64,000 bases of DNA from Candidatus Poribacteria bacterium (lineage in GTDB: Bacteria; Poribacteria; WGA-4E; WGA-3G): contig JAJECK010000113.1 in the NCBI GenBank assembly GCA_022822085.1, forward strand, positions 1 to 64,000, in the 5' to 3' direction. How positions within the stretch are numbered: the stretch's first letter is position 1; each line of letters starts with the position of its first letter. The notes under the pieces are model-generated. The model was not told where the DNA came from, made no database searches, and saw only the letters and a program-made list of their open reading frames with translations. The position numbers and the translations under genes are program-made. Below, piece after piece: positions 56,481 to 58,867 of this stretch.

Positions 56481-57344
56481 ATGAGAGACTATTACGAAAT
56501 TCTCGGTGTTAACCGAGATGCATCATCAGAAGAGATAAAGAAAGCCTATCGCAGATTGGCAGTCAAGTATCACCCCGATAAAAACCCTGATGACAAAGCT
56601 GCTGAAGAAAGATTTAAAGAAGCATCCAACGCTTATTCAGTGCTGTCTGACCCAGATAAACGACGTGCCTATGATACGCGTGGTCATGCTGGTGTGCACG
56701 GCATGGGATTTGAGGGATTTACAAATGTAAATGACATCTTTACTCACATCAACTTGAACGACATTCTTGGGCGTGCCGGTTACGGTGGATTTGGCGATGC
56801 ATTCGGGGATGTCTTTGGACCACAACACCGCACGACTCGTACATACCGTGGACGTGACCACCGCATAAACCTAACTATTCCTTTTGAGGATTCTGTTCTT
56901 GGTGCAAAGAAAGAGGTTACGATACAAGGAAGAAATATTACTATTAAGATTCCACCCGGAATTAAAGATGGTCAGACATTACGGGTTCGTGGACAAGGAG
57001 AATCAATCGGGGCGGGACCATCAGGGGACTTGATGGTCAAAATATCCGTTCAACCCCATCCCACCATATCAAGAGACGGACTTGATTTGGTAACCGAGGC
57101 AAAGGTATCTATGACAACCGCAGCTTTAGGTGGCACTGCCAGAGTACAAACACTCTCAGGAAATGTGGATCTCAAAATACCTTCAGGCGCACAACCAGGG
57201 CAGCAGTTACGAATCCGCGGGCAGGGGATCGTTGATCCCGCTGGACGCAACGGTGATTTGCGTGTTCGACTTGTTGTGGAAATTCCCAAATCTTTGACAC
57301 GAAAACAGAGGGATTTGCTAAAACAACTTGCGAAGACGTTATGA
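56481..57344 (+). CDS. DnaJ-type co-chaperone without zinc finger (CbpA-like)
   Basis: The 287-residue protein has a complete J domain ([20 protein letters not shown], and the HPD motif in [10 protein letters not shown]), a Gly/Phe-rich linker (about 80-120) and two C-terminal beta-barrel domains with [20 protein letters not shown] and a second [20 protein letters not shown]. There is no Cys-rich zinc domain, so it is the CbpA or class B type that delivers clients to DnaK. The stop overlaps the next start in ATGA. Confidence 0.93.
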
Positions 57345-58312
57345 CAAAAGAACATTCGGAACTTGATGACACACCACAGTTGAGTGGGCAATTTGATATT
57401 GTTTCTAAACAGATTATTCGTAATAGTCCAGATGAATGTATCCAATTTTACCTTGGAACACCGGACGCACAGGTGATTAAAGTTTTAGATACCGAGCAAC
57501 CCGTCGTCAAATGGTATCGTGCAGATAGTTTTATACATGCAAACGTTCATGGTCAAGAAGCCATCGTACATTTGGAGTTTCAGACGCACGATAGCAAAGA
57601 GATACCGATGCCGTACCGAGTGGCAGGTTATGCGGGTTTAGGGATACGGATGTATCAATTACCTATCTATTCACACGTGATTTACCTGCATCCAAATGCT
57701 GGACTGAACGATCCAGGGGAATACGTGCAAAATATATCGGGGTATAAAATAAACATAAAATATAAGGTCATAAGACTTTGTGAAATAGAAGGACAAGCCA
57801 TTTTAGATGCCAGACTAAAAGGACTCATTCCATTTACACCATTGATGAAACCACCATCGGAAATGGAACCTGAGCAATGGCTGCGGGAATGTGTTAAGAT
57901 AGCTGATTCAATTCCGATGGACGAACCGGATAAACCTGATTTTCTTTCAAACATTGCAATCTTGGGTGGTATAATTTTAGACTATGAAACTATTCGTAAA
58001 ATCATAACGGAGGAAACTATGTACGCATCATCAGTCATTCAGCACTGGACAGAACAAGGTCGTGAACAAGGTCGTGAAGAGGGGCTTGAACAAGGTCGTG
58101 AAGAGGGACTTGAACAAGGTGGGAGAAATGAGGCACTTGAATCTCTGATAGAAATATTGGAATTCCGTTTTCCACCTGATGAAGCGCAACACCTAATACC
58201 TATACTTGAGAACATAGAAGAACTGCAGCAACTCAGGCAACTGCGGCACAACGCACTTCAGGTATCAAGCCTTGATGAATTTAGAAGTATTTTGTCATCA
58301 AACGGGAGTTGA
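57341..58312 (+). CDS. Rpn-like PD-(D/E)XK nuclease, full length
   Basis: The 323-residue protein begins in the dnaJ stop (ATGA overlap). Residues 1-210 fit the Rpn/transposase-like PD-(D/E)XK nuclease family: [20 protein letters not shown], followed by [19 protein letters not shown], where D, E and Q line the active site, then YKIRLCEI-like strands. Residues 227-323 form a helical C-terminal domain with two 8-residue units EQGREEGL and the ending [11 protein letters not shown] good ribosome-binding site and ATG occur in frame at residue 227. Rpn proteins are DNases that can be toxic and can defend against phage. Confidence 0.75.
58019..58312 (+). CDS. Probable internally started short form of the Rpn-like protein (97 residues)
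   Basis: Within the Rpn-like gene a GGAGG (58009-58013) lies five bases before an in-frame ATG at 58019, the start of [14 protein letters not shown]. From there only the C-terminal helical domain is made. In E. coli RpnA a short protein from an internal start blocks the toxic full-length protein. The same two-protein arrangement is visible here. The signal is stronger than that of most starts nearby. Experimental proof is lacking. Confidence 0.6.
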   Translation: MYASSVIQHWTEQGREQGREEGLEQGREEGLEQGGRNEALESLIEILEFRFPPDEAQHLIPILENIEELQQLRQLRHNALQVSSLDEFRSILSSNGS

Positions 58313-58330
58313 ACCGTTACGCGTGAAACT

Positions 58331-58603
58331 ATGTACGAATCATCAGTCATACAGCACTTTATAGAACAAGGTAAAAAGAAAGGCATTAAGAAAGGTTTTG
58401 AACAAGGTCTTAAACAAGGTAAAAAGAAAGTGGCACTTGAAGTTCTGATAGAAATATTGGAATTCCGTTTTCCACTCAATAAAGTACAACCGCTAAAACC
58501 TATTCTTGAGAGCATTGAAGAACTGCATCAACTCAGGCAGCTACGGCAACATGCACTTCAAGTGTCAAGTCTTGATGAATTTAGAAGTATTTTGTCATCA
58601 TAA
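58331..58603 (+). CDS. Free-standing copy 2 of the Rpn C-terminal domain
   Basis: The 90-residue protein MYESSVIQHFIEQGKKKG... to ...[10 protein letters not shown] repeats the whole C-terminal domain of the Rpn-like gene, with the EQG repeat altered to KQGKKK. It is 18 bases downstream. The ATG is preceded by CGTGAAACT, matching the GAGGAAACT of the parent but with a weaker ribosome-binding site. So the antitoxin-like segment, not the nuclease, has been duplicated. Confidence 0.65.
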   Translation: MYESSVIQHFIEQGKKKGIKKGFEQGLKQGKKKVALEVLIEILEFRFPLNKVQPLKPILESIEELHQLRQLRQHALQVSSLDEFRSILSS

Positions 58604-58630
58604 GGGAATTGAACCGTTAAACATGAAACT

Positions 58631-58867
58631 ATGTACGCATCATCAGTCATACAGCACTGGACAGAACAAGGTATTGAACAAGGTGAGAGAAAAGGAGTTC
58701 TTGAATCACTCATAAATATATTAGAATTCCATTTTTCACCCGATGAAGTGCAGCCGCTAAAACCTATTCTTGAAAGCATTGAAGAACTGCAGCAACTCAA
58801 GCAACTACGCAACCACGCACTTCAGGTATCAAATCTTGATGAATTTAGACGTATTTTGTCATCATAA
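58631..58867 (+). CDS. Free-standing copy 3 of the Rpn C-terminal domain
   Basis: The 78-residue protein begins [18 protein letters not shown], as in the parent, and ends LDEFRRILSS. It is shortened in the EQG repeat. The preceding sequence CATGAAACT again resembles the parent start. All three copies share the block KPILESIEEL or PILENIEEL. Copies 1-3 start 312 and 300 bases apart. Confidence 0.65.
   Translation: MYASSVIQHWTEQGIEQGERKGVLESLINILEFHFSPDEVQPLKPILESIEELQQLKQLRNHALQVSNLDEFRRILSS

Follow-up and report, generated by a model that had tools for sequence, protein, structure and literature searches.

The window analysed here is a 64,000-nucleotide stretch of a contig from a Candidatus Poribacteria genome (JAJECK010000113.1, positions 1 to 64,000), and all features considered lie on its forward strand. 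A DnaJ-like gene (56481..57344), whose synteny with the gene that follows is kept in two related genomes (G017 and G006), ends in a TGA that overlaps the ATG of that next gene (ATGA). The latter (57341..58312) encodes a full-length Rpn-like (RpnL-like) protein of 323 residues, of which residues 1-226 (57341..58018) are predicted, from an AF2 model and Foldseek matches, to form a PD-(D/E)XK-type nuclease domain with the putative catalytic residues D62 and E79-x-Q81 (57524..57583). At the end of this domain the Shine-Dalgarno (SD) sequence GGAGG (58009..58013) stands at 5-nt spacing from an in-frame ATG at 58019, from which an embedded, RpnS-like product of 97 residues, S1 (58019..58312), would be made; it contains six four-residue repeats, or tetrads (24 residues, 58049..58120). 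Two ORFs encoding stand-alone copies of this product follow: S2 (58331..58603; 90 residues, five tetrads), which starts 18 nt past the stop of the nuclease gene, and S3 (58631..58867; 78 residues, two tetrads), 27 nt past the stop of S2. The coordinates given in the initial annotation (57341-58312, 58019, 58331 and 58631) were all confirmed by an ORF check.

The window gene is one of 13 full-length paralogs in its 5.6 Mb genome, the others sharing 34-45% identity with the window protein. When one genome per species was scanned, across 84,980 species, 175 relatives were found, and the best 80 of these, which were kept, all came from MAGs of Poribacteria, Latescibacterota or Gemmatimonadota. These genes make up a divergent Rpn-like family that has expanded in Poribacteria and Latescibacterota. 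No viral copies of the inhibitor or of the nuclease, such as might serve in counter-defence, were found in IMG/VR.

Several loci depart from the usual layout. Another contig of the same genome (C26; L017, 1471-2254) carries two C-terminal-only copies, each with a GGAGG-GTG start, and a fragment of a third, with no nuclease gene adjoining; this is an orphan array, and in its second copy a stop codon lies just before an intact GGAGG-GTG. A truncated gene of this genome (L014, contig C110) has its nuclease domain cut to the last third and retains the C-terminal product with an intact GGAGG-ATG, and in three genes of related genomes (L073, L090 and L130) an in-frame stop lies within the nuclease domain while the C-terminal product and its start are intact. 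The genome also has a second Rpn-like family, which is Transposase_31-like (L021, L022 and L023), with an SD and ATG just before EQG repeats.

S1, S2 and S3 are tandem direct repeats with a spacing of about 300 nt and a DNA identity of 69-83%. The initial annotation had described the two downstream genes as repeating exactly the embedded product from the corresponding ATG. Both do begin at that codon, but the repetition is not exact: protein identity is 71% between S1 and S2 and 78% between S1 and S3, the tetrad numbers differ, and GGAGG has been lost at S2 and S3, where anti-SD pairing is +0.3 and +0.4 kcal/mol, as against -9.5 kcal/mol at 58019. The proposed amplification to three copies with diverging repeats is nevertheless what the sequence holds, and the length differences among the three are exact multiples of four residues, save for a three-residue tail on S1. 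The further suggestion, that a gene-within-gene is here splitting into separate genes, did not survive: copies have been added rather than the gene split, since almost all members of the family retain the embedded start, including most of those with downstream copies. As for similar arrays, which the same annotation had thought worth surveying, C-terminal-only copies adjoin full-length genes at four of the 13 loci of this genome (contigs C153, C36, C38 and C54), and further ones occur elsewhere. The loci fetched contain 18 C-terminal-only ORFs, of which 16 lie next to a full-length gene; 10 of the 18 keep both GGAGG and a start codon, so that the duplicated unit includes the internal start.

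One may consider that S2 and S3 are functionless debris of tandem duplication and that only the embedded product matters. In favour of this, the SD has been lost at both, their tetrad numbers are unlike that of their neighbour, the analogous E. coli copy, ypaA, is annotated as a pseudogene, and the third copy of the orphan array mentioned above is a fragment. At the locus related to that of the window, with the same aminotransferase gene downstream, one copy is found in each of G017, G001 and G016 and none in G006, an observation that can be read both ways: the copies can be absent, yet they persist at syntenic loci of other species. Against the debris explanation, none of the 18 stand-alone copies is interrupted, a search for broken ones was empty at E <= 1e-3, and the ypaA protein has been detected experimentally (PMC10327210). 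So does the pooled pN/pS between copy and neighbour outside the repeats, which over 15 pairs was 0.41 (0.34-0.48). The value of w between the stand-alone copies of G001 and G016 was 0.28 (0.07-0.74), and within the window dN/dS was 0.37 for S1-S2, 0.35 for S1-S3 and 0.42 for S2-S3 (the interval of the last reaching 0.91, or 1.05 on a smaller codon set), with the caveat that gene conversion between copies can mimic constraint. S2 and the stand-alone copy at the syntenic G017 locus have a common 5' signature, MYESSVIQHF, and S3 shares its 5' signature with the G017 full-length gene, its start and helix resembling the C-terminus of that protein more than the one encoded by its own neighbour. The rest of the window and G017 copy sequence groups partly by genome (in a short alignment and with moderate support), which suggests gene conversion among these copies. 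On balance S2 and S3 may be either diverged or orphan antitoxins or genes on their way out; we moderately favour the former and regard mere debris as unlikely.

Repeat number bears on what such copies could do. Of 1420 non-zero length differences across the family, 1328 are multiples of four residues, and 11 of 15 pairs of neighbour and copy differ in the length of the repeat helix, always by such a multiple; S2 and S3 have one and four tetrads fewer than their parent. An excess of repeat mismatches in the copies, as a sign of selection, was not borne out: pairs of full-length genes at least 90% identical differ in nine of 17 cases, compared with three of six for copy and neighbour. Full-length genes differ likewise and about as fast, so the copies are simply not constrained to match their neighbour in length. 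Adding a single tetrad is enough to abolish neutralisation in E. coli (PMC10327210), and in our own alignment ypaA of E. coli K-12 has one tetrad more than RpnE. The initial annotation had suggested that the variants may tune or widen inhibition; by the E. coli rule of one tetrad, S2 and S3 would be expected not to neutralise the full-length protein of the window, and they are better understood as inhibitors that have diverged or been orphaned than as an extra dose of S1.

In the nuclease domain, none of the 76 aligned members departs from D62, E79 and Q81, and a profile of the family can be aligned to the D...E-x-Q segments of both RpnE (56-111) and RpnA of E. coli. In the AF2 model of the N-terminal domain (mean pLDDT 81.9, above 85 over most of the core and low at 53-60) the order of elements is alpha-beta-beta-beta-alpha-beta; D62 opens strand 2, and E79 and Q81 lie in strand 3. 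This invariance and this PD-(D/E)XK order of the core support the Rpn-like nuclease that the initial annotation had proposed. Curated models say less: none in Pfam or NCBIfam reaches its cut-off for the full-length family, the closest, TIGR01784, being found in 10 of the 13 paralogs with a top score of 26.1 bits where the cut-off is 52.1, and Pfam Transposase_31 matches a single member below cut-off (E = 0.046). Matches to FliH and Yae1_N in the Pfam, NCBIfam and PADLOC searches reflect the coiled EQG repeats and were rejected as indications of function. The family is predicted to work as Rpn does, though its scores lie below the cut-off of the curated model.

Alternatively, the domain could be an inactive relative, or a different enzyme, with no active nuclease in it. 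A PDB sequence search gave no match to a solved structure, no Pfam model matches above its cut-off, and the Foldseek matches are weak, with E-values of at least 0.0099, all of which would fit such a view. Yet the best of these matches are mostly PD-(D/E)XK nucleases, with Cap4 first and MspJI, XisH, McrC and a repair endonuclease of Pyrococcus abyssi among the others, all of which we take to be PD-(D/E)XK proteins, and the three invariant residues fall at the start of the second strand and in the third strand of such a core. We infer nuclease activity, and consider an inactive domain improbable.

A different doubt concerns the small product, which might be a structural partner that aids the full-length protein, as Cas11d does from within Cas10d, rather than an inhibitor. 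The evidence for an internal start, given below, fits this equally well. What speaks against it is the match to Rpn in gene layout, tetrad helix and D...ExQ nuclease, the internal product of Rpn being an inhibitor (PMC10327210), and we consider a partner role correspondingly implausible. The AF2 model of S1 is helical, its repeat helix being of low confidence, and it gave no Foldseek match to the RpnA-S crystal structure 7TH0, in which the C-terminal domain of RpnS is a dimeric three-helix bundle.

That an internal start exists is indicated by the codons at the domain boundary. A start codon stands at this boundary in 96 family members, and in 88 of these GGAGG is correctly placed, whereas a redraw of synonymous codons would lead one to expect 11.0 (variance 9.0), and at other in-frame ATG or GTG codons GGAGG is found in only seven of 1080 cases. 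Anti-SD pairing at the internal start has a median of -9.5 kcal/mol, versus -3.05 kcal/mol for the most favourable choice of full-length start. As positive controls, E. coli RpnA and RpnE were scanned in the same way and their known internal starts recovered; the scan also shows a comparable internal site in the other Rpn-like genes of the Poribacteria genome. Many members encode Glu-Glu or Glu-Gly at the boundary, but it is hardly credible that GGAGG merely reflects these conserved residues and marks no start site, given the 11 of 96 obtained by the codon redraw, the persistence of GGAGG while the residues over it change (SEET, KEGI, MEAT, REER, RRIT) and, in one member (L094), even while the codon phase over it differs, the valine at the boundary that is always encoded by GTG (seven of seven), and the stand-alone copies that begin at exactly the position of the internal start. 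Judged by comparison across the family, an internal start of the 58019 type can be regarded as established. The initial annotation was accordingly right to place an intragenic start at 58019, and the tetrad repeats and the in-frame start with its SD agree with its view of the C-terminal product as RpnS-like.

One paralog of the same genome (L007, contig C99) has lost the internal site, having no start codon at the domain boundary, and keeps the active-site D, E and Q; it is the only such full-length member in the main set examined. A possible internal promoter (57946..57975), a TTCAAA-18-TATAAT with TG before the -10, sits 43 nt upstream of 58019. This weak lead was rejected, as the region has four such sites where 5.8 are expected in shuffles, and the element is not conserved in orthologs.

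The starts of the full-length genes, i.e. of the presumptive toxins, are of quite another kind. They are nearly devoid of SD sequences, only one of 92 reaching -8 kcal/mol or below. When a promoter was called if at least 10 of the 12 positions of the sigma-70 consensus matched, 36 of 118 full-length starts had a near-perfect promoter (TTGACA-17/18-TATAAT) ending 5-9 nt before the ATG, most often at exactly 6 nt, and 11 of the 36 were perfect; the controls gave 10 of 708 shifted positions and two of 437 other ORFs. Six paralogs of the own genome are of this kind (L005, L006, L008, L009, L010 and L013) and L007 is a near match, making seven of 13, while about 30 further loci elsewhere have the same arrangement; the window gene does not. 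A promoter that ends so close to the ATG would place the start of transcription on the ATG itself, which predicts a leaderless toxin mRNA with an SD-led inhibitor inside it. Leaderless toxin-antitoxin messages are known in M. tuberculosis (PMC8485053, PMC3898074), and in the literature searched we found no description of a leaderless toxin with an SD-led embedded antitoxin.

Taken together, these observations probably describe a divergent Rpn-like toxin-antitoxin of the gene-within-gene type, in which an excess of the internal product inhibits the nuclease and the additional copies are diverged or orphan antitoxins. In this scheme the full-length nuclease would be made sparingly, from a start that lacks an SD and overlaps the dnaJ stop, and the strong SD and ATG at 58019 would yield the C-terminal helical domain alone. 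The latter would be in excess, given a weak full-length start and a strong internal one, and such an excess has been reported for several E. coli Rpn loci (PMC10327210). The free C-terminal domain would then pair with its counterpart in the full-length protein and hold the nuclease inactive. The segment from internal start to stop would have been tandemly duplicated twice, giving S2 and S3, which were kept as protein-coding genes while their repeat number drifted and their SD was lost, and which may be weakly translated by coupling to the preceding stop or by reinitiation.

A more speculative extension, which we offer only tentatively and doubt will hold in full, is that the stand-alone copies form a store of orphan antitoxins whose non-cognate repeat lengths represent earlier or alternative specificities, protecting against RpnL variants of other copies or of relatives, and that, with an SD-led antitoxin embedded in leaderless toxin mRNAs, conditions favouring leaderless translation would shift the balance towards the toxin.

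Beyond the bacteria studied so far, the codon-level evidence points to a large nuclease family in which the embedded antitoxin start is fixed, and genomes with this family can hold more than 10 such genes. Copies of the presumptive antitoxin arise beside the toxin, and their repeat number, on which specificity depends in E. coli, drifts; whether orphan antitoxins exist thereby becomes a testable question. A predicted leaderless toxin with an SD-led antitoxin would be a simple and testable answer to how their ratio is set, a point left open in the E. coli study (PMC10327210).

Much of this has precedents. In E. coli, RpnS is an embedded inhibitor of RpnL, and stand-alone RpnS copies behind rpn genes (rpnE/ypaA and rpnC), their independent origin and their repeat variation have all been published (PMC10327210). 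New here are the divergent family, the evidence for the start across the whole family, an array of two stand-alone copies, the repeated occurrence of such copies and the prediction that many toxin starts are leaderless. Like RpnA-E of E. coli (RpnL-RpnS; PMC10327210; COG5464, TIGR01784), the window family has the D...E-x-Q motif, a helical C-terminal domain preceded by an internal SD and ATG, four-residue repeats of variable number and many copies per genome. Unlike them, it is too divergent for the curated models, belongs to Poribacteria, Latescibacterota and Gemmatimonadota (judging from the best 80 of 175 relatives), and has full-length starts without SD, about a third of them predicted to be leaderless. 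In rpnE-ypaA of E. coli K-12 a stand-alone C-terminal copy likewise lies directly downstream, starts at the same ATG and is one tetrad off its parent, but ypaA is single and keeps its SD, whereas the window has two copies that have lost theirs and are one and four tetrads shorter. Type I-D Cas10d/Cas11d (cited in PMC10327210) also makes a separate small C-terminal product from an internal start, although Cas11d is a working subunit and no inhibitor. Finally, the leaderless toxin-antitoxin messages of M. tuberculosis (PMC8485053, PMC3898074) resemble those predicted here in lacking a 5' leader, whereas in the present family only the toxin start is predicted to be leaderless and the embedded antitoxin has a strong SD.
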